From Alentia gelatinosa (lineage: Eukaryota; Annelida; Polychaeta; Phyllodocida; Polynoidae), in assembly GCA_950022655.1 (NCBI GenBank), contig OX465587.1, positions 30,693,716 to 30,757,715 of the forward strand: DNA of 64,000 nucleotides, given 5' to 3'. Positions 895-60,104 of the stretch are shown piece after piece (within the stretch, counting starts at the first letter, position 1; every line of letters begins with the position of its first letter). Below the pieces are notes generated by a model, which ran no database searches, had not been told where the DNA came from, and was given only the letters and a program-made list of their open reading frames with translations. The translations under genes were made by a program, and so were the position numbers.

Positions 895-1305
895 AAGACC
901 TTTATTTCACCCTTGGTATTTTCCCATAGATTTAACGTTGGGAACTCGTATTCAATGTCCATGGAGTATTGTAAATTATCTCACCCCTGGTACAAGTTTA
1001 GCCATAGGAATAACATTAGAAAAATATACTCAACGATCACCCTGGTAAAATGACAATGCTACGCCATGGCCGTGGTGTAGTGGATTTGCTAAGTATATTC
1101 TGATTATTCTGAAGTTGTAATGTTATTTAAACGAAAGAAAAGGGTAAGATAAATCCAGAACCGCACTCGAATCGTAAAATAGACAATACTCCAATCATTT
1201 GGCTGTGCCATAATCGTCACTCGGCTTCGCCTCAATGACGATTGAGGCCCAGCCAAACTTGAGGAGTATTGTCTATTTATACGATTCTCGATGCAGTTCT
1301 ATATA
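895..1305 (+). mobile_element. Hairpin-tailed element, subfamily A (copy 1), behind a truncated head of another copy
   Basis: A truncated head (about 903-975, with CATAGATTTAACGTTGGGAA) is followed by a full unit. The unit's head starts TTATCTCACCCCTGGTAC at about 976 and closes with GGGTAAGATAAAT near 1153. The tail (1158-1300) folds back on itself: AATCGTAAAATAGACAATAC pairs with GTATTGTCTATTTATACGAT, and the apex is TCACTCGGCTTCGCCT. Closely related copies lie at 27477-27826 and 41741-42206. Confidence 0.75.
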
Positions 1306-1412
1306 ACAAATTCATTTTAATTTGCTATGTAATCTCACTGGGCTTTGCCTCGCGAAATACTCCGCAACCAAAACTCATGGCATATTGTCAGCAGCTACAG
1401 ATCTCGATGCAA
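1306..1412 (+). mobile_element. Fragment of hairpin-tailed element, subfamily D (right part of the foldback)
   Basis: Contains TTTGCTATGTAATCTCACT, an apex GGGCTTTGCC, and the right arm CCAAAACTCATGGCATATT, all matching the tail of the unit at 4645-4928. The left arm is missing beyond the apex-proximal stem. Confidence 0.6.
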
Positions 1413-1534
1413 TTCCTTCTTGGTCTACAGTGAATCAATAACAACTTTATTCCAGCGGTAGAACCAGAACTTAGTACGTACTGATGAGACTAACATCAAT
1501 CAATGTCACTACGGAGAGTAAACCGAACAATACT

Positions 1535-2160
1535 AAAGAAGAAACCAACAAGTTTGGTCAAATTTGTTATTCTCCCAGAGTTTGATGCGGAGTGATATGA
1601 ACAAGGCAATCCCGAGTGAATATCACATAGCATTCAAACAAGTTGGAGAACCACGACTTTGACCAAATGAGTAGTTTTCTTTATCCTACCCATAATAAAA
1701 AACTCCATAGGCTTAACATTGGGTCACTGTATTCGGTCTGGAGTTCAGAAAAATGAAAAATATCGCTCTAGTGGGATACACTTGACAAATGACGTCATTT
1801 GTTAATGTAGAAGTAATTTAGACCGGCGGGGTAGGATAAATTCTAAGCCAAACTCGAGTTAGTCAAGTTATTGTTCATTGCACTCCGGCAAGATCGCGTA
1901 TTACTGCTCTCGGCTTCACCTTGCGCAGTAATACGCGATCTTGCTGTCGTGCGATAAACAACACGACTAACTCTTGTTTGGTTTCTCCATAGTATTTATC
2001 TCACCCCTGTACACTCTAAAAGAATGAACGCCACACTGGATTTATGACGTCATAGACCATGTAGAACGGAGGGTAATACTCGTAGGCGCATGGAGAATGA
2101 GTTGCTAATGTTAAGCCTATGGTACATAAATACCAGGGGTGAGATAAAGATCCCATCTTA
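1535..2160. mobile_element. Nested pair of hairpin-tailed elements: subfamily C unit inserted in a reversed subfamily X unit
   Basis: The outer unit has its hairpin at 1540-1675 (GTTTGGTCAAA pairs with TTTGACCAAA; apex GGCAATCCCGAGTGA) and its head at 1990-2155. The head has ends TTATCTCACCCCTG and CAGGGGTGAGATAA, in reverse relative to the related copy at 54364-54600. Between the two lies a complete unit (1676-1985). Its head has ends TTTATCCTACCC and GGGGTAGGATAAA, and its tail pairs AAGATCGCGTATTACTG with CAGTAATACGCGATCTT around the apex CTCGGCTTCACC. Confidence 0.7.
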
Positions 2161-3504: not shown

Positions 3505-3905
3505 ACTATACGGAAACAGGGTTACTGTGGCTGTACATGATAAATACGCGGTAAAATGGACGATCAGATGAACCGATGCCGACGGCAGAGGTTCAACAGA
3601 TCGTCAATTCTACCAAGTATTTTACCTGGTATTTATCATATACAGACACGGTATGCCTGTTTTCCTGCTATCATATACCTTAAAATAGTCATTTTTACCT
3701 TCGCTTTTAGACGATTTGTTGGGTTTCACCGCCGTACAGTCTGTATGCCACATACATATCCCGTACGTCACATACACACCCTGTACGCCACGTACATACC
3801 CCGTACGCCACGTACGTGTTGTACGACCATAAATATGACATAGGTAGGAGTGGGCGGAATACGTAGGACATACGGCCACAGATAATTATATAGAACGACC
3901 TGACC
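3505..3905. mobile_element. Inverted-end element with GTACGCCACGTAC tandem block (copy 1)
   Basis: The left part is a foldback: ATGATAAATACGCGGTAAAA near 3538 is mirrored by TTTTACCTGGTATTTATCAT near 3620, with an inner pair GACGATC and GATCGTC. It is followed by a short tandem block (3745-3830, about 20-bp unit, CCACGTACATACCCCGTACG). Related sequence occurs at 45165-45310 and 62775-63060, so this is a dispersed family. Confidence 0.6.
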
Positions 3906-3934
3906 ATGCTGTCCATACTACAAAACGAGATGGT

Positions 3935-4215
3935 GAATTGTTGCTTTTTACAGAACGAGGCCCCAGGCCGAGTTCTGTAAAAACATCAATTCCCATCGAG
4001 TTTTGTTACATGTACAAGCATGGTAGGTCGTAATATATTTATTATATACCCAGAATTAATAAAATCTTACATATATTGGTATAGAAGACATGTCTATGTG
4101 AATCCCTGATGTTTCAACGTGTTCAGTATAACAGTGTACTGCACAGGGTTCAGTATACGATTTATACTGCACAGGGAGTAGCAGTACATAATTATCAAAT
4201 ATACTGCATGGGTAT
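3935..4215. repeat. Small hairpin plus TATATACC-ended element
   Basis: A short hairpin (TTTTTACAGAACGAGG with CCGAGTTCTGTAAAAA) lies at about 3947-3990. It is followed by a segment bounded by TTATTATATACC (about 4039) and GGTATATAATAA (about 4210), resembling the family of element 17-192. The interior has short TATACTGCACAGGG repeats. Confidence 0.5.
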
Positions 4216-4644
4216 ATAATAAATAATAAAACCAATCATAGCCAACCGTAACATTTTCTACTCGTACATCTACTGACTATAGTTGGTGTACATGGATGAT
4301 TAAAAATATCAGTGCTTTATAAAGTTAGGTCCAGTCACTGTACTGCTATCACTCTGTGTAGAACTGGACTAAATCTCCAAGTCTCATGGTAACTAAATTA
4401 ATATCGACATCATATAAAAACCCTTTTATCAATCTCAATAACACTAAAGTAAGACATGAAATAAAACCTTTTTATGTAAATATAAAATCACAAAACATGG
4501 TTCATGTACATGAATGTTCAAAGGTCTACATATATTTTTATTTTTTTCAGACATCAAGTACAAATATATTAGAAATGCCTATTAAAATGCTAGTTTGATT
4601 GTATTAATAGATGGCCTGTGGAATCTATTGTGCTAGATAATGTG
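4216..4644. other. AT-rich intergenic sequence, nothing recognised
   Basis: No conserved protein, RNA gene or clear repeat is visible in this stretch. Confidence 0.5.
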
Positions 4645-4928
4645 TTATCTCACCCCTGGTATTTTTCCCCATAGACTTAACATTGAAACCTAGTATTCAA
4701 TGTCCATGGAGTATTGTAAAAAATACTCCATGGGCCATGAGGTCACAATCATTAGACAATCCTTCAGTGATAGGAGTGAGATAAAATGTGAACTGCACTC
4801 GATCCATAACCACTGAAACTATACCATTCATTTTGGTTTGCTATGTAATCTCACTCGGCTCTGTCTTGTGAGATTACGTAGCAATCCAAAACTCATGGCA
4901 TATTTTCAGTGGCTCGATACAGTTCCTT
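4645..4928 (+). mobile_element. Hairpin-tailed element, subfamily D (reference copy)
   Basis: The head (4645-4790) has ends TTATCTCACCCCTG and GGAGTGAGATAAAA and an internal palindrome GGAGTATTGT/ATACTCCATGG. The tail (about 4793-4928) is a foldback. Its base AACTGCACTCGATC pairs with GGCTCGATACAGTT, then CCACTGAAA pairs with TTTCAGTGG, and GCTATGTAATCTCAC pairs with GTGAGATTACGTAGC around the apex TCGGCTCTGTCTT. Fragments or relatives lie at 1306, 18675-19255 and 35400-35510. Confidence 0.75.
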
Positions 4929-5578
4929 CCTAATACTGTAACTATTGGTCCACACCCAGGGTTTCCTTGGCCCGTTTCCCGGGTTAGATTCACGGGGTTC
5001 CTCGCCAGTTTAACTGTAATAACAATATTTACACACTTCATACCTGATAACACAAATTATGCATCAATTAAAAAAAAATCACCACATATTTACAAAATTG
5101 CACTGATTTATAAAATTTGACCACTCGTCATAAAAATCAAATGCTTCTTAGGATTCCACTAAACGTTTCTTTGAGCACGAGGGTTGGAGATTCCGGGATT
5201 AAGCACTTTTCAGCTGTCTCGGGTTGGAGATTGAAGAAGCTGTCTCGGGTCGGAGATTGAAGAATCTGACGCTTAATTGGGAACTCCAGCGAGCGGATGG
5301 CTTGACGTTAGCCCCGATTACCTGACATTACAGTCTTATTCCAACAGAATCACACACAGATACACTATTTACACATTGAACTGACATAAAATACGCACTC
5401 TGAGTACACTCTCCAAACACATTCACTGATTGTTAGACATACAAATAAGAAAGACCCTTTTCATCACATCTCATGATATATATAAGCATGTACTCATACA
5501 CTCACTCACTCTACTTAGATACACACATACACCACTGTCTTATATATATGTATACAAAGTGTGACTGCGCTTTCGCGA
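4929..5578 (-). other. 3' flank or 3' UTR of the SWAP-70-like gene
   Basis: Immediately downstream of the TAG stop, reading on the minus strand. It contains a two-copy direct repeat of about 29 bp (GCTGTCTCGGGT..GGAGATTGAAGAA) at 5213-5265. I could not identify a convincing poly(A) signal, so the transcript end is not placed. Confidence 0.4.
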
Positions 5579-5833: not shown

Positions 5834-8800
5834 CTGCGAAAAAAAAAACCATCAACATGTTATCTTAGGCACCAGGCGCATTTATCTCATTTGGATTTTT
5901 CCAAGAAATATATACAAATATCACGAAAGTATATATTTTTTCTTTCTAATTTTTGATGCGGTAGCTCGAACAGTGAAAACCCTAGCCAAGTATTCAGAAA
6001 TATATACAAATATCACAATATTACAGGGATGTTAGTTGGGGTCATGAAAATACAGTTCCACACCTTTGTAAAAAGCCAACTTCTCACAAATGCTGGACGC
6101 TACACTCGGTAGCCAGCACGCTTTGGATGCTATGTTTCGTAAATTGGACCCTTCACTTGGTTTTGGGGAGGTGACATTATCGCACTAGCGGTGAACCACA
6201 TAACAAACATTGACAAATAATCATATGTTGCCTTTCGTGAATCAAAATATAAACACACCAACTGTTTTTCGCATAGCTTTAGCTATCTACTGATGTTTAT
6301 TTGAAGTTCCTACGTCAATTATTGACAAAGTTCTGACATAGATTTGAAAAAAAAAGCGTAGAGTTTGTCCGTCACCTGCGGAAAACTGAGGCGTGCTGGC
6401 TACGAAGCGTAGCGTCCAGATACCCTCCTCCTCCTGACCCACCTGCAGCGTGTTGTCGGCCGTCTCTCGCTCCTGTCGCAGCTCCTCCAGTTTACGCCGC
6501 TCGTCTCGAAGCTCTGCCTGGTGTAACTCCCGGAGGTCCTCCAGGTTCTCTCTCCGCTTTCTCTCCTCTGCCAGCTGCAAGGCCTGCTCCTCTTTCAGTC
6601 TCTCCAGCTGCTCACGTTTCTCAAACTCCTCAGCCAGGATCCTGAAGAGTTCCAATAATTGGTAACAGAATTAATTTGTATAATGTTGCTGTATATAACG
6701 AATTTACCTTGTGTTAACCAGAAGGTTGTATCGGAATAACTCACTGTGGAGAGAGATAAGATAAAGATTTTTATTTTTTTAAAGAAGGAAAAAACCCTCT
6801 ATATATTGAGGAAAGGTCATATGAAATAGATTAACCAGTGATACTCAGAATTCTGTTAAGAAATTGAGGTTCAAACGGAAAATCGCTAATTTAGACGATA
6901 AAAAAGTTGGAATGAGAATCTCACTCCTACACATTTACTGAGGTGAGAGTTCTTTTACTTCCCACACCACATAGACATGGTATGAAATGGATTGACCTTT
7001 GATATAGCAGTAAATCTACCACTGCTGGGTATGAAGGAGAAAGGTGGCAAAACACCACACCACACAGACATGGTATGAGAAAGACTGGCCTTTGATATAG
7101 CAGTAAATCTACCACTGCTTGGGGTGAAGGAGAAAAGTGGCTACAGTGGGACTCAAACCCACAAAGTCTGTAAAGGGTTTACAGGTCCCATGCCCTTTAC
7201 CACTGAGCTAACTCCCCATCCCGGTCCCTTTAGTTGTGTTTGCATGCAAGCATATCCGGCCTGCACCACGAGGAGGCAAGGCGACAATGTTCAAAGACTG
7301 CATATAACATAGACTTGCTCAAGTCTTTGATTATGAACATTCATTAAATGATTAATCACAATCAGAATAAAGTTCATTATAGTATGTATCCTTCTCTGAC
7401 TGGCCCATGAATCAAAGACTTGTCCACTAGGAACAGAATCTTCAGTTTATGGCCCCAAGCCGCTCCCTGTAACCCTATACTTCCTCCTACCCCTCCCCCT
7501 CCCCTCCTCCAGTTCCCTGGCCACTTGTGTTGTCATGGCAATACATTTAGCCTACTCCTGACTGTGACTTGATTGAGATCAAAGTGAGAGGGTATCAATC
7601 TCCCAGCAGGTATCCTAACCTGTAGCCAGGATATCTGTATGGAGAGTGTTGGGAATGCTGGAGCTAAACAGTACCAGAAATCCAACACCATTACCGATTG
7701 TACCAGTCCCTGTATCCCAACGAGGAGGGTAGCCATAGGATGCAGGGACTGGAGCCAGTCTAACAAAACCTGTGCGTGTGTGAGTGTTACACCAGGTCAT
7801 GTGACTATGACGAGGCACACTGCGCTGCTCCGGTTTATTGTGCCACAAAACTTGTCTCTGCAATGATAGACTCTTTACAATCTTGGGATTTTAAGATGTT
7901 CCCTCCGAGCCTTTTCTCGGGAGTCCCATTGTGTATTACTACCCTAGGAGGATGTAGTTCTTCATAGCATTGCCCATCTTGCTTCATTTTCATTAAGAAT
8001 TGCTGGTTTCATAGATGAATTGTTAAAAGTACTTCAGTAACAACTTCTAGGTGACTTAGGAAACAATATTATTTAGATACAAGTGATTAAGGTATAACAC
8101 TGACCTGGCCTGCAGGTTGCGGACGATCTCCTCGTCTCGCTTCGCTTGACGCTCCTCCTCAAGCAGAGCTTCGAGTTCTTCGCGGATGACCTCCAGCTCC
8201 TGGCGTTGCTGCTGCTCGGCGGCCAGCAGTTCCTGTTCCATACATAGACGGGCTTCGGCTGCCTCGCGCGCCTTGAAAACCAACAAGTCGCACATCACAT
8301 CATCCATCTTCTTACCCGAAACAACAACCTGAGGTCATGCTAGTTATTACATAGGACACAGTGAAGGGGTTTTTGCATGACTGATTTTACCATTGATCCT
8401 GCAGGTATGCATAAGGATTTCTTTTGGGTTTTTTTTGTTTCAGCCACGTTCTATTAATCAGGAATGTATTAGGAAACAAGATTCTCCAATGAGTTCTGGT
8501 TATTATTAGTGGAGCCTGCGTGCCTACAGTATCAAAGAGCGCATTTTACCAAAGGTGACAAGTAAAGTAGGTGATTACATGATCACAAATTTTCTACTGA
8601 GCAGTAATCCACTTCTCTACTTGCTACCTTCAGCAAAACGTCACCCATAGAGGCAATAAGTAGTGTGACTGTGAGGGTCAGCAAGCAAAAGTTGCGTCCC
8701 AATCCAAAAATATAAATCACTATATTACAATTAAATACCGTAGGTTTGATTAATAAATGCATATTTAGTATAAACAAATATATTAGAGCATGGTATAGAA

Positions 8801-11800
8801 GGAATTGTATGTAGATATAAGAATTTTAAACATACAAAGTAGTTGAAGTGGTTGGGTAGGTTCACTACAACAAGGTTAAGAAGGGAGGTTCTCTAACATG
8901 CAGGAATAAGTGTGAACTATCTTAGATGACTGACGACTCATGTAGATAAACCATGCAGAGCACATGCTGTGTGGTTTCAGTAACTAGGATCATACTTGTA
9001 TTACTAAAACTTGACTATTTTTTTTGTTTTTTGTTGTTGTTGTTTATTTCATCCAAATTCTGTCATACAGATCTTCTATTTGGAGTAATGTGCGGTGAGT
9101 AAATAACAAGAAAAACAACTCAATTATCCAGCTACTGAATCTTGATGTGTGTGGATGGCCGTTATGGAAGACCACCCTAGCGGTGAGTTATAAGCAATAA
9201 AAAAAAAGAAGGAGAAAATCTAAACATGCTTGGAGAGTTGGTACATGCACTAGTATACAAGCAAGTATGTCAGTTGGGGTCATGAAAAAATGGGGAGATA
9301 TTCCTCATGTGAAAATTACTGCTCCAGAGAGTTATTTGTTTGTGGTTTTATGTCCCAGTGGACCCTGAGGGTACATAGGGCCTCAGAGAGACTGAGAAAA
9401 CATGGGAAACACGTTGTTATTGGTTAAAATGTTATGTTGTTATGGTTCTGATCAGTTTGGGGAGGTTTGAACCATTGTGTAATGGTGTGAATGAGGCCCA
9501 ATTTATTCTCTCGTTATTTTACACAAACTGAAACTGAAAGCAAGGATTTCCTTGGAAATTAGGAAAGCTGCTATCACTTGTAACTGTGGGGTGTGTATAT
9601 ATAGATCAGTTAAGGACACTGGACAGTGTGGGGACTAGTAGTAAAACATGCTCAGAGCTGTGGGATGTGTGTATATAGATCAGTTCAGGAGACTGGACAG
9701 TGTGGGGACTGGTAGTAAAACATGCTCAGAGCTGTGGGATGTGTGTATATAGATCAGTTAAGGAGACTGGACAGTGTGGGGACTGGTAGTAAAACATGCT
9801 CAGAGCTGTGGGATGTGTGTATATAGATCAGTTAAGGAGACTGGACAGTGTGGGGACTGGTAGTAAAACATGCTCAGAGCTGTGGGATGTGTGTATATAG
9901 ATCAGTTAAGGAGACTGGACAGTGTGGGGACTGGTAGTAAAACATGCCCAGAGCTGTGGGATGTGTGTATATAGATCAGTTAAGGAGACTGGACAGTGTG
10001 GGGACTGGTAGTAAAACATGCTATGTCTCCTTATTACATATACCTGGAAATCATTAAAAACGCCATTTTAAAACAAGTCACGTGGTACAGAGAGCATTAA
10101 TTATTAGTTCGTGTAAAGTGTGCAGAACGGAATCTGTACAGCTGGCCAGTATATGTGAGACATTCGTGCACAGGTATATAATAATAACTTATCTTGCCAA
10201 GAACTGTATATTTTAAATATTTTGAGAGAATTTAGACGTTGGACAAGAGACAAAGAGCCATGCGCCTTATGAAAAGTTTTATGGAAAGCCTAAAATTTTA
10301 CAACACAGACCTGAAAAATAATTTGATCAATTACATAAGACACAAATATCTATATCTAAATCTTCATGAACGATATAAGATTTTTTTTCTTTTTCTTAAA
10401 TAAGGCGAATTCCCAGAGTTATTCCATTACGATTGTTGAGATAAAGTTCTTCTTCTGTCAGTATCTTAATAGTATCACTTGTGTCCCGATAAGTATAGGT
10501 TGTGACGACTATAATTATGGTAAAAAGAAACCTATGCTTCTTCAAGGATTTAAAACAAAAATTGTACTGTAAAATGGTACATTAAATTGACTTCTGCATA
10601 ACAGATTTTCAGGCCAATTCTTATTCTAACAGCAATATATCTTTGCCGTCGAACAAAACCCTCAATTTTACAGATAAATATTTAGATGATGAAGGTGAGA
10701 TAATGGAGTAATGGTAAAAATGGGAAATAATGAAACCCTTCTAATAAAGCATCTTCTAGTGTACCGGTACTTGATTTCGTCAAACCTAACATTTTAGATT
10801 AAATAAACGCATCATAGTATTTTGACCTTTAGCGTTTTTTGGTCCTGAATTTCCATCGGGAGTGTCAGATTGGATCAGAAAAAATGTGGAAAACTTTTCA
10901 CAGTAAATTTGCTGGGGGAATGTGGGAAATGAGGAAATGTCAGTGTGGGTCAAAGTGTGGGCTGAAGGGTTTGTGGGAAGGTTCAAACCAGGTTTTTTTC
11001 TTTTGTGGATGAGGCTCAATTAATATTCTCTTTGTTTTACGCAAACAATAAACTTTGTGCGCTACTAAATAAAAATAATAGTAACAAATTGAAAGAAAAT
11101 TAGAAGAAATAGTCAGATATATGTATGTGATACTAAATCAAAAAAAAAAAAAAAAAAAAGTTAGATATGTGCTACTAAATATTTTCTTTTTTTAAAAGAA
11201 AATTATCAGATATGTTCTACTAAATAAATAAAAAATATAAAGAAATAAAAATAGATATGTGCTTGATTATTAAACAAGAGCAAAATTATATAATAGTCGA
11301 TATGTGCTGATAATAAAATGTGGTTTTAAACTTAAAAGAATAATGTATAACATACAGCTAAATATGGGCTACTAAATAAAAAGATAAAAAAAAAAGTCAG
11401 ACATGTGCTACTTAATGATAAAAATTTTTTTTTTTAAATAGTCAGATATGTGCTACTAGATAATAAAGAAAAGTCATATATGTGCTTTTCAATAATAAAA
11501 AACTAATTATTGATAAAAGATTATTAATAAAATGCAGGCAGCCCATCAGCTGAGAGCTGAGGTGACAGACATGTCTCTTCTGCTCGAGCTACTATTAAAC
11601 AAACATAAAATATACAAAATAGTCAGATATGTGCTACTAAATAAGGAAAATAAAATAAAGCCAAATATGTGCTACTAAATGAAAAAATAAAATAAAGTCA
11701 GATATGTGCTACTAAATAAAGAAAAATAAAATAAAATACAGTCAGATATGTGTTACTAAATAAAGAAAAATAAAATAAAATAGTCAGATATGTGTTACTA

Positions 11801-14800
11801 AATAAAGAAAAATAAAATAAAATACAGTCAGATATGTGTTACTAAATAAAGAAAAATAAAATAAAATAAAGTCAGATATGTGCTACTAAATAGATAAAAA
11901 TAAAATAAAATACAGTCAGATATGTGTTACTAAATAAATAAAAATAAAATAAAATAAAGTCATATATGTGTTACTAAATAATTAAAAACCCCAGTCAGAT
12001 ATGTGCTTATAAATAGAGGATTATTAATAAACTGCAGGCATCCCCTGTGTTGAGGGCTGAGATGACGGACCTGTCGCTCCTGCTCCAGCTGCTGCTTGGT
12101 CTGCTCGATGAGCTCGGCCTCTTTACGTTGTCGCTCGGCCTCCACCTTCTCCAGCGACCTGCGCTCCTCGCGCTGTACCTTCCTGCGCTGATGAGCCAGT
12201 CGCTGTAGAGACTGGTTCTTACTGCACTGCTGTATCGCACTCCTCAATGCTGCAGAGTAACAATAACATTGTCACAATGAGAACTTACCGTAAATTCCCA
12301 CGTATAAGACTGTGGGAAAATCCTATAAGACGCAACCCCCTTCCAGCCCCCCACCCCCACCCCCGAAACCCACCTCCAACCCTGTCATTTCCAGTGGAAA
12401 TATTAAATATATATGTAAGATTACGAGTAATATCATATATATATATGTATTCGTATGCAGTAATATCATAATAAAATATTAAAATGATACAGATCCTTTG
12501 ATTGGGACAATGAGTACTTAGTAGAAACGAAAGGAAAGAAAGTAGTAATACACTCATTTACTAGGAAGTCAGGTACAAGGGGTTCTACAAATTATACGGG
12601 GTTGACATACACAGGTTCTATGAAGCCTTTTAAATACTGAGGTAAATATTTCTGTGTTTTATAAAAATTCCTGAATTCTGAGATCCCTGTGATTACTGAG
12701 ATTGTCTGACAAACAGACTCTTAAACTGCCAGATTGCCACCTTGTATTATGAAGCTCTGCGTACTTCCTATTAAAGGTTTGCCTCTATTACGTTGTTAAG
12801 TAAAATTGTACACATTAATCAAAGAACGGATGTACACAAAATCTAAAAAGAAATCTTACCCCCCTCCCCCACCACACTGCATACGTACTTAACTGCTGCA
12901 AGTGTGTTTTATCTTTCATGCCTAAGTCTTTCACTGTTTCACTAAATATAGATTTTTCACATTTTCTTGTTTGTTGACGCCATTGATTATTGGTGAGTTG
13001 TGATCCTAACTGTGAGACTAACCCGGCGTTTATACGAGATGATTATGCTACGTTCACACTAGTGTTCCCGGCGACCACGGCAGCCACGTTTCACCAAAAC
13101 GTTGAGCACCATTGCAGATGGCACAGAAGTCATAAATATGCGTTTACACTATGTTCCTGGCGGCCACGGTTTGAACTTTTTTCATGCCCCGCGTTACCCA
13201 TGCCGGCCGCCTAAGTTATTCCACGCCCCTCACGCTTTGTCCACAGTCCCCGGGACGTTCCCTAATAGCGTATGCGTTCAGTCACGTTATGTGGCGTTTA
13301 CCACGTTCCACTGCGGCCCAGTACGATTCTCATTAACACTGTGGAAGAATTTTTGATAGTGACTCATTTTGCAATGGCGGCCACGGCAGTCAGAGTGTGT
13401 TGCGTTTCCCAATGCCGTTCCCCTGAGTCCCCTCGAGTTGTCTCACGTCCCTCACGTTTTATTCACAGTGGCCGGAAATGTGGCCGCTGGGAACATAGGG
13501 TAAACAGCAATATGGGCGACGAGTCTTGAATTTAGTACCACCTGACGACTCTGCATGATATATAGTCTAGACTTAATGCTTGACCGTTTCTTGAGATCAC
13601 GATTCTGGGTGACAATATTGCATAATCAAGCACCACCTGACAACTCTTTTCTATAGGATCTAGAGTCATAACGTTTTCAGTCGTCTAGTGTAAATACCAG
13701 GTATGATTGTCTGAAGTCAAGTGTAAGATATGTATTTTAAACCTTGAGTATTGATTGACTGAAGTGTGGTTTGACTGACAATGGACTGATAGTGAGCTAC
13801 GAGATTTTACTTGAAAAAAGTGCCTAGTTTCGCTTCTGATTATAACCTCTTGTGAAGTGGGTAATCATCGACTTTTTCTGATCAAACTTCAAACTTCAGC
13901 TAGACACAACTAAGTTCAAATGAATTTGAAAAACCATCAAACACAAGAGGAAACTTTGAGGTTCTTGATATACGTAAACTTCGAACTGCGGGCGTATATG
14001 ATATCCAACATATTGGTTGGCATATATACGTTAGTTTTTGCTAATAAATTCATTGTATTTATTTAGTATCGATTATGTTGACGTACTGTATACTTCGGGC
14101 TGGAAATGCGGACATTAGGTCATGTACAAAGGCAGACAATGTGGGCGTATCGATGTGAGCTGATAGTATTCTGTTGTAGACAGACAGCGGAGAAATCTTA
14201 ACCTCTTTGCAGGAGCAGTTGATAAATTACCCTTCCTCGCCGAACACCAAATAATTATATAGAACTTGATTGAGAATCTTATAAATACACAATACTCCAC
14301 GAGTTTGGATGCACTGGGTGTCCGCTTCCAGGGAGTTTTCAAGTTTCCTCCAGTCTAATATTCAAGTGTTACATACCGATATGTATTCTGCAATATCTTA
14401 ATTGGATCCGAAGTTATTCAACTTTGAATTACAAAATGTATTTTCTATGAATACACTCACACACATTCATAGAAAAACCACAGATTTATCTATATTTTTG
14501 GTAGGGTGGCTGTCGGAGGTGTCCGTTTACACGGGGTGACCGCTTATGCGGGGTGTCCGCTTACGCGGGGTGTCCGCTTACGCGGGGTGACCGCTTACGC
14601 AGGGTGACCGCTTACGCAGGGCGTCCGTTAGGTGGGGTTCTAATGTTTGTTTGTGAAGTTTAACGTCCAATTTGTTCAATGAGACTTAGGGTTCTACTGT
14701 ACTTTTAGTAGTTATGAATCTGTGAAGTGTCAAGCCGACTACAGGCACCTTACCTGAGACCCATTCACTTCTCGTCTTGACGTCTGGACAGCTGAACTCA

Positions 14801-44800: not shown

Positions 44801-47800
44801 ACCACTGCTGGGGATGAAGGAGAAAGGTGGCTGCACACCACACCACATAGACATGGTATGAGAAGGACTGGCCTTTGATATAGCAGTAAATCTACCACTG
44901 CTGGATGATGAAGTGTGTACATCGACAAATATATCACAGATTCTCACCGACCCGACGGACTGGACTAGCAAAGGTGTGATCGGTACACCTTTATTATCCA
45001 TCATATACAAAGTCCCCATTGAGAATATATGGGGACTATTAAGGCGCTCTTGCAATGTAAGGAGGTCAGGGTGAAGGTCGTGGTTTGCTCTGAATGCAGT
45101 CATTGGCTGATGGGTCAATCCATGTTTTCTATATTCCTTATATGGCACTGAAGGCATAGGGACAATTCCATGCAGGTACATACCCCATACGCCACGTACA
45201 TACCCCATACGCCACGTACGTACCCCGTATGCCACGTACGTGTTGTACGGTCATAAATAGGAGCGGACGGTATACGTAGGACATGCGGCTACAGGTATAT
45301 AATATTCAGAAGGAAACTCATGAGATGAAAAGAACTTGGTCCGTACTCCACCGAGTTTGACCGCAGAGTAATTCAGAAGTGGCTTTCTGATCCTATCTCA
45401 CCCCGTATAACAATATGAATTAACAAAATAAATACTAAATTAGCCATTGACTATTGGGTACACTACCTTCAAGTAGAGTACGAGTTCTCGACTGGCCCCA
45501 GTACCTGTACCCCTGCACCTACCCCACCCCTCCTCTCCTCGACAAAGTTGATTCCTGGACCAGTCACACTGCAACATACTTGATCTTGATTTTGTTTAAT
45601 CATGAATGTCCATAATCAAAGACTTGATCAAGTCTATGTGAGTTCCTAACGTTAACCCTTTAGCTACGCTATGATGCCTAGAGGCATTCCCGGGCATAGT
45701 ACGCTATGATGCCTTGAGGCATCATTTCCCAAATTTAAGTAATTGCTATTTTATAATAAAGAAATGCAATTTTTTAAATAATATTTTTCCCAACCTATGT
45801 AAACAATATCATAGTTACTATTACAGAACATCCTAATCATTTTGGATTACCGTGGGGTTGTGACATAATGACGTCACAGTGGATATTGTAAAAAATGCCA
45901 GCGTGCTACAGGGGTTGAAAATGGTATTGCAGCAGCATATTTCAGGGTGTGTATTTGGTGCTATACAATGTAGTGAAAGGGTTAAGCCTATGGAGAAAAA
46001 TAGCGGTGTGAAAATAATACACAGAGAACTGGGTGGTCAGCGCTACTGTGGTACTGGTCGACAGCCCCCTTTGTTGTGCAGTGGACTGAGGTAGCGCGGT
46101 AAAGGAAGACGTGAACCCACAAACCACACTGCTATTCAAACCGAGTCGACCGAGTGTGACACTTACAGATCCCTGTCTCTAACCTATATATAGTGCACTG
46201 TGAAAGACGGGGCAGGAAACACACCAAGCCGAAACTTAGTATTTATCCTACCGCTCACTACAGTCACACCGTGTTAAGTCTATGGAGATTTATATACAGG
46301 GATGTCAGTTGGTATCAGAAAAAAAGAAGGACATATTTTCCATGACAATTTTGGGTTTAAACCTGACGTATAAACAACAAAAACAATATAAATGAATTAG
46401 ATACAAGTAATGTTATTATTACTAAACATATGTCTGTCTCTAACCTATATATAGTGCACTGTGAAAGACGGGGGCAGGAAACACACCAAGCCAAACCTTA
46501 GTATATCCTAACCCTCACTACAGTCTGTTTGTTTGTTGGTTTGATTTAACGTCCAGTTAACCATTGCAGGTTCTCACCAGACTTTCTCAAGGTTTTTTTA
46601 CACCACAAAGGTGGTGATCGAATCTATGTAATGAATTCAGGTAGAAACCTCGCCACTACACATTTACCGAGGTGAGAGTTCTTTTACTTCCCACACCACA
46701 TAGTTATGGTATGAGAAGGATTGGCCTTTGATATAGCAGTAAATCTACCACTGCTGGGGGGGGGGGGGTGAAGGAGAAAAGTGGCTGCAGTGGGACCCGA
46801 ATCAACAAAGTCTGACAACCTTGGGATTACAAGTCCAGTGCTCTTTACCACTGAGCTAACTCCCCACCCTAGTCACTATTGTTATGCTTGCATGCAAGTA
46901 TATCCGGTCTGCACCACGAGGAGGTGAGGTGACAGTCACACGTGTTAAGTCTATGGAGATTTATAAACAGGGATGTCAGTTGGTATCAGAAAAAAAAGGA
47001 CATATTTCCCATGACAATTTAGGGTTTAAACCTGACGTATATACAACAAAAGCAATAGAAATGTATGAGATACAAGTAATGTTATTATTACTAAACATAT
47101 GCTTCCATGAAGAGTCAGTGGGTAGGTAGAGTTGGGAATTAAGGCTTGTTACTTATATGAGTAATATTAGGAAACGTCCTTACTGTGGACATAACGGTTC
47201 CTGTTTGAGGTAAGTCTTCGATTTCATACTGCCTGACGCCATAGGCGGAAGGCAGTATGAAATCGAAGATTGACCGAGAACAAGAAGCGTTTCGTCCACA
47301 GTGAGGACGTTTGCTTATTATTATACACCTAAAATTAATGAAAAAACGACATTTTGATGACTTATTAAGTCTCTTTCAAAGCGGGCACGAACATTATTAT
47401 TACTACACCCCTAGCAGCGGGCAGTATTTCATAGAAATTCGCACACAGGTAAATAATAATAGAGGGAAACTATGTTCCGGTGAGCAAAAGTTCAAAATTA
47501 CGAGGTAAGGCTTGGAACTATTACTGCCCAAGGCGTCAGCCGTGGGCAGTAATTTTTCCAAACCCTTACCGAATAACTTTGACTTTTGCTTACCGGTACT
47601 TGGGTTCCCTATTCCTATATACCTTCAAATATCGATAAAAATGCTTAATTCTTTACCTAGAACACATCCGAAGGAAATGGCCACCCTTATCGAGTAACCA
47701 CAACAGCTATTGTTTCGTCCCGCTGCTGTGTTGTATCACATGATCAGAGCGGGACGAAAACGTCAGAGCGGGACGAAAACGTCAACCTCGACACATAACT

Positions 47801-50800
47801 TATTTTTAATGCACCCCCCAGCAGCGGTATGTAATTCTAGTTAGTTCAATAATGGGTATATAGGAATATAGCAGTCGTATCTCACTACTCTGTGTTGTTA
47901 TATGTTAACATATTTTCAGCAGCTATGGATCTCACTGCAGCTCCTTTTTAAGGTGCAATGATAATTCATGTGTAAATTGGGTTTGGTAAATAATATTTCA
48001 CATAATCAAAATGATTGACTAGATATTCCCCTAAAAGCCATAACGACCATCTTTATCCAATGATTTATAAAATCAAACGAATGAGGATAAAGTTGTAAAT
48101 GTTGTTATCTAAATAACACAGATAAGGACTCAATCAGTAAATATGGGAGTGCCTCAAGGCTCTGTTCTGGGACCCATCTTATCTTGTACAAAAATGAGGT
48201 CATAAAGAGTCAATAACAATACGGCAGGCAGATTGACTGCCGATGACCTTGTACTCTCTGTATCTTAAGATGATCTACATTGTGTGCTAAGATGAAAGAT
48301 CAAAATCTATTGAAGATGACTAAATGGTGGACGATAAATACTAATAATATATTTGAGGATAGTAGGAAATGAACGTGTGGAGACACAAAATTAAAACTGA
48401 AGATACAACAACCTAAAATAGAAAGATATAGACACTCTCCGATCTATGTAGGATACCAATTATGGGGTAGATTAAGCGGTCAAATACAATTACTGCCGGC
48501 AGGGGATGGGTTTGAAATAAAATGAAATAAAATAAAGGGGGTACAACATGTACTTCACACGGTGATAGAAACCAAATAACTGAGGACAGATGCATGGAAT
48601 AAGCGGTAAAAGAATCACAAAAGCATATGATCAGATGATATTTGTTTTGGTATAAATGAGTGAATGAAAGGTTATATGTGATGTGTTTAACCTAACTTTA
48701 AATAAAGAAAGAAAAGATGCCCCCCCCCCCCCAAAAAAAGAAGATCAAGTGAACTGAATCATTAAGTGGCTTGGTTTGTTTGTTTGTTTGGGTAGTTTAA
48801 TGTCCAATTTGTTCAATTAGACTTACTTTGGGTTTGACCAAATCTATGACATGAATGAAGGTAGAAATCTCACCCCTACACATTCGACCGAATCTATGAG
48901 ATGAATGAAGGTAGAAATCTCACCCCCTACACATTTACTTCCCAGACCACATAGACATGGTATGAGAAGGATTGACCTTTGATATAGCAGTAAGACTACC
49001 ATTGCTGGGGGTGAAGGAGAAAAGTTGCTGCAGTGGGACTCAAATAAACAAAGTCCGGTGCTCTTTACCACTGAGCTAACTCCCCACCCCGGTCGCTTTT
49101 GTTATGCTTGCTGCAAGCATATTTGGTCTGCACCACAAGGAGGCGAGGTGACCAAGAGGGTGAACAGATTGGTAATTGCTGTCCACCCCTGCAGACCTCA
49201 TTTCTGGATTCCCCCTACTGCTCTGCTCTCTTGGCTCGATGGAGCCCAGACTGAGTTGTCGGGGCATCGCGTAAAAATGTTTTTTAAAGTCTAGACAGCG
49301 AAGCTCTACATGCACAAGTAAGCACCAAATAGACTGTAACTTTTCTTTCCCAGTATCAGAACGCTCTAGCACTATAGGGCACAACATTGTGCCCCACCAT
49401 TGCAAAAATAAGGAACAAATAGCTTGCCATAAACACATGCTATAAAGTGTGAATGAGGCCCAATTCATAAAAGAATCCGAGAAAAGAGAATTTTATAAAC
49501 TGAAAATGAAAACAAGGAAACTGCCACCTGTAAAAAAAGATAAATTCCTATGTCTTCCTAAATTCCAAAAGAAATAACATTTCTAACAAGGGCCATCCAT
49601 AAAGTACATACAAACTGAGGCGGGGGGAAACAATATGGACATTTTGCGTATGTTCCTTCTTTGTTAGAAATTAGATGGGGGTGGGGGACGGGGTCGGGGG
49701 GGGGGGGGGGGGGTTAAAACAATTTCGACATTTTGCGTATGCTCCTTCTTTGTTCTATTGCGTACAAAATAGAGATGGGGAGTGGGAATGGGTGGGGTGT
49801 CAAATAAAGTCCCACTCCAACGAGCGAGACATTTAACATTTTTCACATCCCCACAAGGAAGGAAAATGGGAAAACCTTTTTATAAAATAAAAACAAAAAT
49901 TATATGGATAGCTCCTAAAATATAGCGTAAAGGATGTCAAATTTTGCGTAAATACTTAATTTTTTCCAAAGGAAATAAAATCCCACTCCAACGAGTAAGG
50001 CATATTTCACATCCCCATAAGGAAGAAAACTGGGATCGTTTTTATAAAAAAAACAACAAAAAAAACCTTCGCGTACATACTTTATGGATGGCCCCTAAAA
50101 ATATAGTATAGAGAACTGACCTTCATGAGTATCTTGGTGACGAACTCATCGTACATATCCTGTAAGGAGTAAATAATCACCTCCTGCTCCAGCCCCAGGC
50201 AGCACCTTGACTCGAAAACCCCGAGAAACTGTCCGAACTCCATCCGACTCGGGGTCCGTACCAGATCCTCATGTTCACTCGGGTCGCACACCCGCCCGGC
50301 AATCGTGAGGAACTTCATGATAATCATATGTATCTCCTCACTATCCACCACCACCGGAAACAGCAGTTCACGAGGCGCTTCCGGCGGCGTCTCGGCCAGG
50401 AAGTTGAATATGCGCCACAGCCGGTAGGTGTCGCGGTCGTTGAGGAGACGCTGGTCACGTGTGAGGTATTTTTTGGCGGTCACCAGCCAGCACACCTCGT
50501 CGACTTTCTCCAGGGCGGCGTGTGCCTTGTGAGGAGGCATATCCTTGAAGCGGTCGAAGACATCGACCTTGAGGAAGTAGAGGAAGTCCTGGAAGGAGAT
50601 GTTGTTGGAGCTGCGGTAGTCGTCGAGGCCTTTCTCTGCCTCTTGGATGCCCAGACTGGTGGCGATGTTGTGTGTCAGCACCTGTGAAGATACAGAGTCA
50701 CTGTTACATTTGTTTGTTTTTTTAGGGAAAGAGAGATTAAAAAAAATTATAAAAAAAAAATTGTTTGTTTGTTTGGGTACTTTAACGTCCAATAAAGTAA

Positions 50801-53800
50801 AACCTTGCTTAAGGGATAATTTGCTTGGACCGGACATTTTCCCCTCTATTATGAGTTTATTTTAACCCTGCATAAGGGATCACCCCGCATATAAGGGGAC
50901 ACCCCGCATATAAGGGGTCACCCCGCATAAGGGGTAACCCCGTATAAGAGGGAAACCGGCATAACGGGTCACCCCGCTTAAGGGCGCAGTTATTTTGGTA
51001 CAGAATGCTTCTAAACCCCGCTTAAGGTAGAACTTGGGAGGGACATTTTATCAAATCTGAACTGTTTATTGGTGCGAATAAGGCCCAATTTATTCTCTCT
51101 TTATTTTACACAAGAAGATATTTTCTTACTAATTTGAAAATGAAAACAAAGATTTCCCTGGAAAATAAGAAAACTGATCTCTGAGAGTAGAACCCCGCCT
51201 AACGGACACCCTGCGTCAGCGAACACCCCGCGTTAATGGACAGTTTTGCTGGGAACGGAAAAGTTAGAAAGGAGAGTGGTATTTTAACCTGGGGTTTGTT
51301 TGTTTCCTTTAACTTCTTTTTTTATGTTGGAGGTACGAACTCGGTCGCTGTACTGGCTTTTCAATGATTAATGAAGCTTGATTTACATGGAGAATCACTT
51401 AAAGTACTTGGGTTTCCCCAGCCACCTTGGGACCACACTGGGTGAATATTCACTCTCTGTCCAGATGCACATACAGTACTCTAATCTTATCTAGCTCTTA
51501 GAACAGATGAGTTGTTTTTTCGTTGGTACTACTTTTCCGTATGCTCCATTTGTGCAGCTTGGAGCATACAACATATATGTATGTGCCAGGTGTGTCCATA
51601 CAGAGCTCCTGTAGGTTTACTATGGACACTTTGTATCAAGTGGATAAAACATCATATCTGTATGCGCCTGGTATGTTCATACAGAGTTCCCATAGGTTTA
51701 CTATGGACACTTTGTATTAGATGGAAAATACAACACATATTTATGTTCCAGGTATGTGCATACAGAGTTCTCACAGGTTTACTATGGACACTTTGTATTC
51801 GGAGTATGATATAAGATCCACATGCGCCGGGTTTGTCCATACAGAGTTCCCATAGGTTTACTATGGACACTCTGTATTAGATGGATAATATATATATGAT
51901 ATTGACTGGTTTCAAATACTTGTATTAGGTGGATAATAAAACACTAGACTGAAATACTAGACTTCATGTGACAGGCCCAGGATTCAGATATGTGTGCCAG
52001 CGGAGGTGGAGAGGCGGAGGAGGGGTAAGTAGAGGGGAAGAGGTAAGGAGAGGGGTAGGACGCAGTGACGGAGGCCAGTCTACAACGTGTATAGAATTCA
52101 ACTCTCTCCTGGCCACATAAAAAGTGATCCCGATATAAACTGTGAGGTAGGAGAGGACGAGGAAGCTGTCACTTCTAATACGCATCTACACGAGGCGCAG
52201 CGAATCGACGACCCACAGACCACACGGAGGAGAATCATTCTCACGTTAAACCGCCTGTAATAGGGCAGATAGGTAGTGTTCCCTGTACTAACCATGGCTC
52301 TGTCCCCTATAGGTTTTGTTTGATTATTTGTTTAGGGAGCGTCCAATAATTATGGCCGGGGGCACAGTTTTTAGGGGGGGGGAGCTATTTTTGGGGTATT
52401 CCAAGGGGAGGTGTTTTTTGGGCGGGAGGCAGCTGTTTTTTTGACCGATTGATGTTGAAAAAGTGTGCAGATGGGTATTGTTCCCTGGGCGCCATAAGAA
52501 CAAAGAGCTGCACTACAGCTTCTGCCCCCAAATGGTAGCTTCATACTGTTGGCCACCTGGTGGCTGCTTCATGTACTAGCAATGGCTCTGTCCCCTATAG
52601 ATTTTGTTTGATTTTTATTGTTTAGGGAGAGTTCAATTATCATGGCTGAGGGACACAGTTTTTAGGTGGGGGGCAACTTTTTGAGGGATATTCCAAGGGG
52701 GGCTATTTTCTTTTGGATATTTCTATGGGGGACCAATATCTTTTTTGACCGATTGATGTTGAAAAAGCTGTGCCCCTGGCTATACTTAATGAACGCTCCC
52801 TTCACGTCCAGTATGTTCTCTTTGGGCAGACTTACTTCGGTTGGATCGTGATCGAATCTCTGAAATGAATTTAGGTCGAAATCTCACTCCTGTGGATATT
52901 GGAAATCCTTATCGAGAATCCTGATCTTTCGGGTGATTTAAGCGAAGATTTGCATTCTTGTATACTGCGTATGTATCTTGTCAGATGATTGAGTAGCGAG
53001 ATTGATTTATAATCTGTACTTTTAGTATCCACCTAATACGGAGTTTCTATACTAAACCTATATAGCCTTCAGATCGCTAGAACACGGAAAGCCGTATTCT
53101 CCTAATAGAATACGGGAAATAGTTCCTAGCGCCCAAAGTAGTGCGTGAGATGATAGGTCAACATTTTTTATTTCCTTTGATAACTTAAATTTTCAGTGCT
53201 AAATGGTAAATACAACATTAGATGTATTATGATTTTGATATGCGTGGTTATATTCTCCCCGAAGTTGACACTAAATAATATCCTCGTATTAGCTTGGATA
53301 TTACTACGCGTCAACAACGCAGAGAATACGACCACCCAGATAAAGATTGCGGTAATATTGTGTATTTGGTTGACGGTCATAGAGGCCTAGCACTGGCCCT
53401 GTCGGTGGTGCTACCAGTCTCCACCCACGATACATTATCAGCCCGTACAAATCCCAACACGAGATGACTGTCAGGTTTACATGGAGTTGTCATTACAAAA
53501 AAAAAAACAGCGACGGGTAGATTATATATAAGTGGACTCCTACACAAACAGGAAAGATCATCTCCTCGTTTATAAACTACACAGGGATCAGTTAACCCTT
53601 ACAGGACGAGCTTAACCCTTTAACTGCAGCATGATGCCTCCAGGCATTCCCCTGGCTACAGCAGCATGATGCCTCCAGGCATTCCCCTGGTTACAGCAGC
53701 ATGATGCCTCCAGGCATTCCCCTGACTATGGCAGCATGATGCCTCCAGGCATTCCCCTAGTAAGAATCGCCAGAGACTTACTTCCCATCTCGTTTGAATC

Positions 53801-56800
53801 GCTACATAATTCAAACTCAATGGGATACAAGCTCTGACCCTAAACTTCCATAGGTTTCCTCTTTAGTATTCCGTTCAAAAAGGGTTAACAGAGTTGCACT
53901 GATATTGCCATGTCAAGTGCAGAGTTTAGAGCATGCATTTACTCCAGAAAGCTGGCAATCACTCGAAATAATCACATATTAACGACGTATTTACTAATCA
54001 TAAAACAGGACTGCTACATGTAATGGCTGATCACTTCCTGTGAGAAAAACAAAAAAAACCTTCCCCATGTCTGAGGTTAATGACTCGAAACACAGTGATA
54101 CTGATTACACACCAGGAGAGAGCTTTATTTGCACCAATAAAAAAAATTTTAAAAAAGGGAAAAAAACAAAGAAAAAAAAAAAGCGTCATATTTCCTCCGG
54201 GCAGAGATCTTGATAGACTAGCTCAAGTATTTGATTATGAACATACATTGAATAGCTAATATTTTTTTTAATTAGCTATGTGTTCTAGAACACTTTGAGA
54301 CCAGCGGTAGCTGCAAGAGAGAACACACATATAGACACGTCTTGAACACTTGGAGATCATAATTTATGGTATTTTTATCCCACAGGCTTTACATTTGAAA
54401 CTCGTTCTCCATGCCCCTACGAGTATTGCAGTCCGTTCTGCATGGTCTATATACTGTGTGTCTTCCATTCTTTTAGTGTAGAGGGGTGAGATAAATACAG
54501 AAAGCAACTTGTTTTTGTCAAAGCTGTTGTTCCCAATGTGATATTCACTCCACATCAAACTCTTGGGGAACAACAACTTTGACCAAAACCTGTCGATTTC
54601 TTCTTTATTTCAATTTCCAGAAAATTTACATGAGTTTTACTTTTCGAGGTAAATCGTCCGACATGCCTTTAAATAAGCCAGAAAGAGGTTCTGGTGATGC
54701 TCACTTCTTATTGTTGGTCATGTGGGCTGCTGCAGATTTTTGGCATCTGGTGGAAATAGGACGTCTTATGACCAGGAAAACATGTCCCTCCCTCTCACCC
54801 GGATGCACATGCACTTATTAACCTAGTGCTTAGGGTCATATTATATACCTATAATGGTAAGCCATACAGTGACCAACAACTGTTACAGTATTGGTATCAT
54901 ACCCATACCACACAGTATGGAGATAAATACACACATTCTCTGAATACGCAATCGACGCAGGTGATAAAAGTTGAACATATTGACGTAATTTTTTTTTTTA
55001 GCATAGGTTGTGTTCAGTAGTGTTTCAGCCACATATTCTTAACTTTGACGTAAAACATATGTACAGTAAAACCCCGCTTAAGGGGAGACCCTCTGTTCCG
55101 GGAAAAGTGTCCCGTTAAACGCGGTTACCCCTTAAGTGGGATTGGAATAAACTAAATAAAGACTTCTGTTCCGAGAAAACTGTCCCCTTAAGCGGGGTGT
55201 TCCCCCTAAGTGGGGTGTTCCCTTAAGCAGGGTGTTCCCTTAAGCCGGGTGTCCCCTTAAGCCGGGTGTCCCCTTAAGCCGGGTTTTACTGTACCTTGTT
55301 GGGACATCCTCTCATCCCTTGTTTCTTTTGATAAACATATCAAACTCGCTCTACATGCTCGTTTATCACTATATACCCATGCCGTATCTACTGTAAATAA
55401 GCACCGTTTCGTAACGTACAAATAATGTACGGACCACTGACTACCTTCCCATACACGTTTATTGAAATATTGGTTGTTGAGCCAAGTAAAATTAATGATT
55501 TTTTTTTAAATTTCGGGTATATAGTAAATATGTAACGTCCAACCATGCTTGTACAAGTCAAAGAACTCAATGATAATTTGTACGGAGCACTTGGCGTAAA
55601 CGCCTCGTTCCATATAAACCATAAATTACCATTTCATTCTGTGACTTTTACAGCATGGTAAGGACTTTCTATAAAATTATTTTCATCAAAATAGATATGG
55701 TACCATAGGACGTCCTAACAAGGTAAATACGTTTTACTAAAATATCAACCATCAGTGTCATACGTAGCGGATCAACTCTTTTTTTTTTTGTTAACGACTT
55801 TATTTTAACGACTCAAGGATGTCAGTTGGGGGTAGGAAAAAAGTGGAAATGATTGTAATTTGTATTTTGTTTGCCTCAGATAGACTGAATAAATATGGAA
55901 AAGAAATCATTTTCAGCCACGGCATGGGGCCGAGGGTGCGTCATTTTATACGTATGAATGAGAATTGTACATATCTTTTCCGTTTTGCACAGGGACAAAA
56001 AATTCATAAACTGAAAAGGAGGAAATTGGATCTACATGTACTTGGAAAAATAAGAAACTGCCATCTCTATAATAAAAATACTGGCCTTTTCACGTCTACC
56101 GGATACACATGCACTTATTAACCTCATTGATCCAGACGGTTTGTGTTTAAGGTCATACCAACCAGCAGGGTCATATTCAGGGGATCATCTTTTTTTTTGT
56201 TAACGACTTTATTCATACTGGACAAGTACTATCATGAAACATCACAAAATGTCATATGATTGTTTATATGGCATGAGTTGTCTTCGCGGAATGATATCAT
56301 GAAGCGCAGCTGAGTGATATCTGTACCAGAAGACAATGAATGGCATATAAACGATTATATGAAATTGAGTGGTGTTAAAATTTTATCCTACCCTGTCACA
56401 TGTTTTTAACATCATATGTCACCAGTGGCATATAAATATTTTATGCCATAACCGTGGCCTACAGTCACACCATGTTAAATCTATGGAGATTTATATGAGG
56501 GGTAGGATATATTGATGAACAACCGTTGCACGAGTACTTCTCAGTGTGGAAATTGGCATCTCTTACCGCTATGACACAGCTTGCCCCTTCTTTGATATTC
56601 AAAGACTTTTTTATGATTCTGGTAATACTCTTTAAGCCTAATACACATCGACCGATCGTGGACTGAAGGATTAGTTCTCAAATCGTAAACTTGTTGTGAT
56701 GTTTGTCTCAGGGAAAATGCGCTTCTGGTGTCGACCAACAAGCAGCAATCACATTGGTATACCAGAGAGGGGGTGGTAGGAGTTAGTCCTAAGCAAATCT

Positions 56801-59950: not shown

Positions 59951-60104
59951 CGGGCGGCTGCCATGCTTCGTGGTGCCAATTGCTCGAAGATTCATAATGT
60001 ATACGCCAAAACCCAATTTGCTTTTATTTTTGTTTGTTTATTTATTCATCTAAAGGTTTAATTGGGCGTTGATTCGTAGTAGATAATATAGAAAGACATG
60101 GTTA

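Follow-up and report, generated by a model that had tools for sequence, protein, structure and literature searches.

Two-part repeat units in the window

The stretch of DNA analysed here (64,000 nucleotides of the polychaete Alentia gelatinosa, contig OX465587.1, positions 30,693,716 to 30,757,715 of the forward strand; hereafter the window) is animal DNA with 41% G+C, taken from an assembly of 1,234,393,884 bases, and it carries many short repeat units, each composed of a head with inverted ends and a foldback tail. An initial annotation had recognised at least 12 full or partial units built on one plan; we placed 13 complete or almost complete units of the superfamily, here called S1, plus several fragments, and we distinguish two families, S2 and S3, that follow the same plan with other inverted ends. 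No described element with this design was known to the initial annotation, but the class itself is a known one: full-length relatives of the S2 type encode a Crypton-type tyrosine recombinase. As argued below, the units are probably non-autonomous Crypton derivatives, and the tail would be a strand-marked folded recombination site like the attC site of integrons. Our sample consisted of the window and about 224 kb of fetched genomic loci (L-numbered), partly overlapping, and related copies in it are non-independent observations. The S1 units and fragments in the window are as follows.

902-975, plus strand: 5' head part of the older S1 unit into which the unit at 976-1305 inserted; tail remnant at about 1309-1421
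976-1305, plus strand: S1 unit; head 976-1153, 3' inverted repeat 1141-1153, tail 1154-1305 (152 nt); sits in the head of the older unit
1538-1680, minus strand: tail of an older S1 unit, its own head at 1996-2148 and the insertion 1681-1991 between them
1681-1991, plus strand: S1 unit of the TTATCC type that separates the older unit's head from its tail; insertion site GTTTTCT|GTATTT, without duplication
1996-2148, minus strand: head of the older minus-strand S1 unit
4645-4932, plus strand: S1 unit; head 4645-4785, tail 4786-4932
14252-14317, minus strand: fragment of the 3' arm of an S1 tail
16243-16537, plus strand: S1 unit; head 16,243-16,384, tail 16,385-16,537
18669-19253, minus strand: S1 unit hosting a nested unit; tail halves 18,669-18,733 and 19,016-19,107, head to about 19,253
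18734-19015, plus strand: S1 unit of the TTATCC type, within the inner stem of the other unit's tail; apex inverted (GA on the plus strand)
23116-23398, minus strand: S1 unit, 5' truncated; tail 23,116-23,269, inverted repeat 23,270-23,282
27478-27829, plus strand: S1 unit; head 27,478-27,677, tail 27,678-27,829
31306-31501, minus strand: S1 fragment; head 31,374-31,497 and start of the tail
35407-35510, minus strand: S1 tail fragment
41743-42211, plus strand: S1 unit; tail broken at about 41,968-42,094 by a poly-A retroposed sequence with target repeat
43004-43294, minus strand: S1 unit; tail 43,004-43,153, inverted repeat 43,154-43,166, head to 43,294
53795-53869, plus strand: S1 tail fragment
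54367-54607, plus strand: S1 unit; 5' end degenerate, apex deleted, tail 54,499-54,607
56230-56511, minus strand: S1 unit of the TATCC type; tail 56,230-56,381, head 56,382-56,511
61312-61371, plus strand: fragment of the 3' end of an S1 head

Units nested in units make up both the array at 895-2150 and the pair of 18,669-19,253, which corrects the initial annotation; in the split older unit of the array, 902-975 aligns to 4645-4720 and 1310-1391 to 4826-4909. The poly-A-tailed insert at 41,968-42,094, with ATTCCACTCGTTT at both ends, is an ordinary retroposed sequence.

An S1 head starts with TTATCTCACCCC or TTATCCTACCCC and ends in the inverse, GGGGTGAGATAAA or GGGGTAGGATAAA, the ends being inverted repeats of 12-13 bp, and the foldback tail comes next. 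In the window, TTATCTCACCCC ends lie at 976, 1996, 4645 and 27,478 (plus strand) and at 2136 and 54,483 (minus strand), TTTATCCTACCCC ends at 18,733 (plus) and at 1828 and 18,851 (minus), and apex strings at 1217, 1909, 4855, 16,453, 27,742 and 42,124 (plus) and at 56,301 (minus), matching within a few bases the positions first reported. Genome-wide, TTATCTCACCCC occurs 24,041 + 23,807 times on the two strands (47,848 in total) versus 71 + 53 times (124) for the same string read backwards, and the S1 ends are therefore beyond chance. The inverted ends do bound the heads, as had been claimed, but the proposed length of about 130-160 bp was too narrow: most heads measure 129-200 nt, and five of 36 are longer. 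Some 45 nt on the 5' side (the CCATAGRCTTAACATT box) are common to S1 heads. We collected 54 heads with both ends from the window and the fetched loci; three lie too near a locus end, four could not be oriented, and 47 were oriented by this independent 5' box. A strong fold (E < -42) is found on the 3' side in 33 of the 47 and on the 5' side in seven, and the more folded side is the 3' one in 37.

The foldbacks of the window at 3888, 40,677, 47,164, 47,461, 55,537 and 60,080 belong to the S1 design but have different ends (GGTATATAGGAATA, GGGTATATAGTAAATA, GGGTATATAATAAATA and similar), and they constitute S2:

3882-4045, minus strand: S2 tail after GGGTATATAATAAATA, an inverted repeat shared with the Crypton element described below
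40677-40993, plus strand: S2 unit; 5' end TATTAGTATATACC, 3' inverted repeat GGTGTATGGTAATAA, foldback tail
47164-47461, minus strand: S2 unit, 81% identical to 40,677-40,993; tail 47,164-47,323
47461-47612, minus strand: S2 tail after GGTATATAGGAATA; TTCG/CTCG loop
55537-55665, plus strand: S2 tail after GGGTATATAGTAAATA
60080-60247, minus strand: S2 tail after GGTATATAGTAATA; TC/TC, CTC/TCT and TCC/TCC loops, TAC/GTA apex

On the head-to-tail strand, tandem TC loops are present in all six of these tails and a tandem GA loop in none. The third end type, S3 (GGTGGATAACAAATA and similar), was found in fetched DNA.

Anatomy of the tail and turnover of its stem

A search of the window and the fetched DNA gave 149 distinct matches to the inner repeat (at least 11/13; 5' ends read backwards included), of which 39 could be fitted to an architecture with six sites. 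Sites were placed by this fit because MAFFT alignment across subfamilies misaligned the stems. One fitted tail (L037+190), which had opposite polarity and resembles another family, was left out before counting, and 38 were retained. The fit permitted tail lengths of about 129-176 and assumed the last 15 nt; it located sites by likeness to CTCG, with misplacement possible in decayed copies, and at least one site is misplaced in the tails at 4785 and 18,658 (the joined 18,658 tail has only 14/24 motif matches).

After the inner inverted repeat, a typical tail runs through 12 nt, a site, 24-27 nt, a site, 20-23 nt and a site to an apex of 7-8 nt, and from there through a site, 20-23 nt, a site, 24-27 nt, a site and 15 nt to its end. 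Each of the six sites reads CTCG on one and the same strand, and opposite sites pair as symmetric loops (C-G, T·C, C·T, G-C). The length is 150-156 nt in 33 of the 38 tails, and among their 228 sites 72 are exact CTCG, 35 CTTG and 35 CTCA, the last two both being products of CpG decay. The stems fall into nine clusters with a mean identity between clusters of 0.37; the earlier observation that stems differ among subfamilies and yet remain complementary is borne out, since between-subfamily identity is near chance while the loops persist and the arms stay paired, most columns being Watson-Crick in 50-90% of tails. The apex persists too, as had been noted, but the conserved part is the scaffold of six CTCG sites together with the apex, not the apex alone.

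Two copies of the recombinase element introduced below (L050 and L051), which are 98.8% identical over 2192 bp, differ at eight tail positions, six of which form three compensating pairs. This is evidence that the stems change as matched pairs, just as the initial annotation had proposed, and the persistence of such paired turnover between nearly identical copies suggests that the hairpin itself forms. The simplest explanation of the paired changes would be that, while the strand is folded, one arm serves as the template for the other. The further proposal that apex and fold serve as a recognition signal fares well in that the fold looks constrained, but the main signal would have to include three polarised CTCG/CTCG loops and their spacing.

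Polarity of the loops

The head-to-tail strand carries T·C/C·T in the loops and the opposite strand G·A/A·G. In 19 window foldbacks oriented by a head or an inverted repeat, T·C/C·T mismatches number 115 versus 25 G·A/A·G, and tandem mismatch pairs 22 versus one. In the 38 tails, T·C occupies loop position 2 in 76/114 cases and C·T position 3 in 85/114, and stem mismatches outside the loops are unpolarised (151 Y·Y versus 161 R·R). A set chosen without the motif, the 66 strongest palindromes at a threshold of 30, contains 157 symmetric 2-nt loops, CTCG/CTCG being the commonest (21), followed by GACC/GGTC (10), which appear to derive from a satellite in L022 rather than from tails, and by CTCG variants (8, 7 and 5). 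The inverted-repeat patterns for the polarity test on this set were written after the TC-oriented list, and each side was then searched with them; in all 29 informative palindromes the polarity matched the side on which the inverted repeat lies, the other 37 of the 66 being uninformative. A replicate of 40 kb taken without selection, with the palindrome threshold lowered to 26, yielded five palindromes, two of them informative and both concordant.

On the complement strand, the loops of the 26 seven-nucleotide apices are GAA (12), AAA (8), GGA (2), GTA (1) and others (3); 12 further apices differ from these in length. CGAG/CGAG, the complement of the paired sites, is a context in which DNA favours tandem sheared G·A pairs. 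As to the apex, GNA loops form DNA mini-hairpins of extraordinary stability that contain a sheared G·A pair, according to the accessible portion of PMC6479982, which also cites a triplet loop of AAA with a sheared A·A pair to close it.

A tyrosine recombinase between S2-type ends

A search of the genome returned 5316 first-look tyrosine-recombinase candidates, and all 150 that were scored matched. Such candidates are extremely numerous and fall into several classes of ORF length (about 281 and 345 aa). The loci read (L049, L050 and L051) are three copies of a single element, all of the 281-aa class and of S2 type. The 281-aa exon matches DUF3504 (8.1e-27) and Phage_integrase (1.6e-13), a combination given in the accessible part of PMC3212892 as the signature of animal Cryptons, and an upstream exon matches QRICH1 at 2.1e-5, below that model's curated cut-off. 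The motifs GMRGR, NHSVR, GHKN and NSY are present, the R-H-R-Y residues being assigned by eye, and a scan of four ORFs of L049 yielded no further enzyme domain.

At the first of these loci, GGGTATATAATAAATA and then a 147-nt foldback lie downstream of the gene and on its strand; the same repeat precedes the window tail at 3888-4038. All three copies have a tail of 147 nt after GGGTATATAATAAATA with a GTA loop at the complement apex, and in all three homology stops at the end of the tail (within 1 nt) and gives way to divergence. TC/TC loops stand on the gene strand in two of the three. The apex of L049 is fully complementary compared with that of L050, as if one arm had copied the other. In the one copy with upstream DNA read, the 5' end, TATTATTATATACCC, is the inverse of GGGTATATAATAAATA, and the element measures about 3355 nt, with the recombinase gene between S2-type ends and a foldback tail closing it. 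The string GTATTCTCTA occurs 2717 + 2662 times versus 1190 + 1152 for its control, a figure that is not a copy number. Because inverted ends are present, the element is classed as a Crypton variant by its enzyme and not by its ends.

Insertion sites

Units lie within units at window positions 976, 1681 and 18,734. The check for empty sites suggested by the initial annotation was run and unoccupied relatives were found: for the 1681 unit, among the matches listed, in the window near 54,499 and in L030, L031, L034, L039 and L040, and, likewise among the matches listed, for L026-8968, L032+2621, L030-6451 and L037-226 (the last two with only 72% identity). The empty site of L027+4624 reads ATATCTTT|ATACTC in three array copies. 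One recombinase copy sits in a tandem repeat with 10 intact units, where the empty site is GGT|ATTAC and there is no duplication; ATTA occurs at the 5' start and beyond the 3' end of one copy. No clear target duplication was seen at sites with unoccupied relatives, L026 and L032 each being ambiguous by one base.

The insertion step is T|purine, with T at -1 in 26 of 31 units and a purine at +1 in 28. The 31 are drawn from 36 units, four (L037+190, L037+7788, window-40718 and window+4772) having been set aside beforehand and one skipped; ends were picked to close in TA or CA no more than 2 nt from the expected place, and the row window-62308 is a mixture of two nested units. Two separate units lie directly after GGAGTATTGT, one at window position 976 (in the head of another S1 unit) and one in L029 near 4600, and this string is perhaps a preferred insertion site.

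Possible mechanism and alternative explanations

Since the parts resemble those of an integron cassette, we believe that the recombinase works on the tail's folded strand. In such an element the 5' end recurs as an inverted copy near the 3' side, and a closing foldback tail of 150 nt comes after it. The recombinase of the full-length relatives would excise or copy the unit and join it at T|purine with no duplication. The tail would be the recognition site, single-stranded DNA folding into a hairpin of fixed geometry in which the three CTCG/CTCG loops and the GNA/ANA apex of the complement may tell the enzyme which strand it has and where to cut, the remaining stem being free to vary as matched pairs. 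S1 and S3 presumably use the same kind of enzyme as S2, and the folded single strand would be the substrate of the proposed cleavage. A broader proposition, put forward tentatively, is that animals may harbour tens of thousands of integron-like tyrosine-recombinase units and gene-less derivatives that recombine as folded single strands, the strand mark consisting of tandem loops (T·C in the top strand, G·A in the bottom one) at fixed spacings together with a mini-hairpin apex of the GNA type. If true, a tyrosine recombinase would be recombining folded strands in a eukaryote, and the way in which Cryptons select their ends in the absence of duplex inverted sites would be explained; integron-type recombination would occur in animals if the substrate is indeed the folded strand. 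The question of how Cryptons recognise their ends and integrate becomes directly testable through a defined, strand-polarised end structure.

Several observations weigh against this interpretation. The 5' end is in view in only one of the three recombinase copies; in L049, homology to the 5'-complete copy is absent upstream of position 1978, the element's 5' end finds no good match in 4.7 kb, and the apex has no TC/TC loop. No recombinase gene was seen between S1 ends, the loci read being the three S2-type copies, and support from S3 is thin (three palindromes, one of them with a tandem TC loop). The tail at 18,865 has an inverted apex. DNA nearest-neighbour energies favour the complement in 29 of the 38 tails, but the mean advantage of that strand, -2.84 kcal/mol versus -1.77 with randomised polarity (sd 3.39), is not decisive and amounts to no clear strand asymmetry; folding energies were dropped as proof of it. 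According to the accessible text of PMC3212892, the original Cryptons have no terminal inverted repeats or long direct repeats and carry 4- or 6-bp terminal direct repeats, and that text uses none of the words palindrome, hairpin and stem-loop.

The elements could be Crypton derivatives whose recombinase works on double-stranded ends, the foldback being a cruciform or a by-product and the loops protein-binding sites or relics. The association of gene and tail fits this equally well, and so do energies that lack a clear strand asymmetry, but the polarity is limited to the loops and does not change between S1 and S2, and stems turn over in pairs even between copies 98.8% identical; we consider this explanation unlikely. 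A transcribed structure, with the hairpin acting as RNA (a small-RNA precursor or structured transcript) and mobility incidental, would suit long imperfect hairpins of constant polarity, and tandem G·A pairs also stabilise RNA. It is nevertheless quite improbable, given that no Rfam family reached its gathering score in the window, that the GAA, AAA, GGA and GTA apex triloops (23 of the 26 seven-nucleotide apices) match compact stable DNA loops, and that the end of the tail is the end of the element in the recombinase copies. Ordinary cut-and-paste miniature inverted-repeat transposable elements with chance hairpins would account for the 12-13 bp inverted repeats at the head ends, but scarcely for a 3' inverted repeat that is internal rather than at the outer end, for duplication-free insertion at the sites seen or for heads usually accompanied by a tail; these features contradict that explanation, to which we attach hardly any probability.

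A Helentron/Helitron2-type rolling-circle element whose 3' palindrome is much enlarged was favoured at first from the order of the parts. As far as the accessible portions of PMC4067079 and PMC5148889 go, Helentrons, HINE/DINE-1 elements and Helitron2 share with our units an asymmetric arrangement (a 5' inverted repeat, its inverse near the 3' end and a 3' palindrome) and the lack of target duplication, and Helitron2-like ends of Fusarium have CC-GAA-GG hairpins, two groups inserting between T and A. These elements rely on a HUH Rep-helicase, however, and here a tyrosine recombinase gene was found between such ends; the published HINE palindromes are 5-10 bp long versus arms of about 70 nt here, and they insert at TT, with terminal T runs, rather than at T|purine. 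One Helitron_like_N match (three candidates) was obtained in 1.23 Gb, a Rep-like gene split over several ORFs (L046-L048, C7:36,817,000-36,834,999), and the 18 kb around it contain no recognised repeat-plus-tail downstream. That locus has an S2-like repeat without a fold at local position 640; the palindrome found at 17,072-17,200, upstream of the gene, has an S2-unit-like flank and no tandem loops. A Helitron or Helentron partner was dropped on the basis of this single Rep match without a downstream repeat-plus-tail, and we now regard it as improbable. Scans of viral contigs with the head and apex patterns hit 0, 12 and 1 contigs, with no unit around the matches.

Comparison with known systems

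The probable assignment to Cryptons rests on what is shared with CryptonA (Kojima and Jurka 2011, accessible text of PMC3212892), namely a tyrosine recombinase of the DUF3504 kind and the lack of target duplication; what differs here is the presence of inverted ends, a polarised foldback tail of 150 nt and abundant short derivatives. The same text calls Crypton boundaries difficult to characterise because inverted ends are lacking. No Crypton ends such as ours are described in the literature covered, which comprised the papers cited here and listings of others, with most subscription papers and Repbase outside the coverage. The attC site of integrons, as presented in the accessible part of PMC2727003, is likewise a palindrome with little sequence conservation; there, one folded strand is recognised by a tyrosine recombinase and unpaired bases set the choice of strand, which for our tails is a conjecture. 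Integrons are bacterial and use extrahelical bases rather than symmetric CTCG/CTCG loops, and the likeness meant here is one of design. Telomere palindromes of Streptomyces (accessible part of PMC7205883) form several hairpins, many of them GNA-capped with sheared G·A pairs, and as in our tails their stems vary and their loops persist; they stand at chromosome ends, whereas ours stand at transposon ends, and some carry CTTG loops in place of GNA ones.

Other features of the window

The SWAP70 N-terminal EF-hand domain is encoded in an exon-like ORF at 50,082-50,861 (minus strand). Among the remaining repeats are a perfect 251-bp tandem duplication at 17,563-18,063, minisatellite arrays at 24,304-25,110, 9584-10,022, 43,376-43,955 and 30,624-31,040, and a dispersed family of tandem units of about 93 bp at 6917-7145, 17,349-17,605, 33,484-33,925, 37,649-37,872 and 44,702-44,913.

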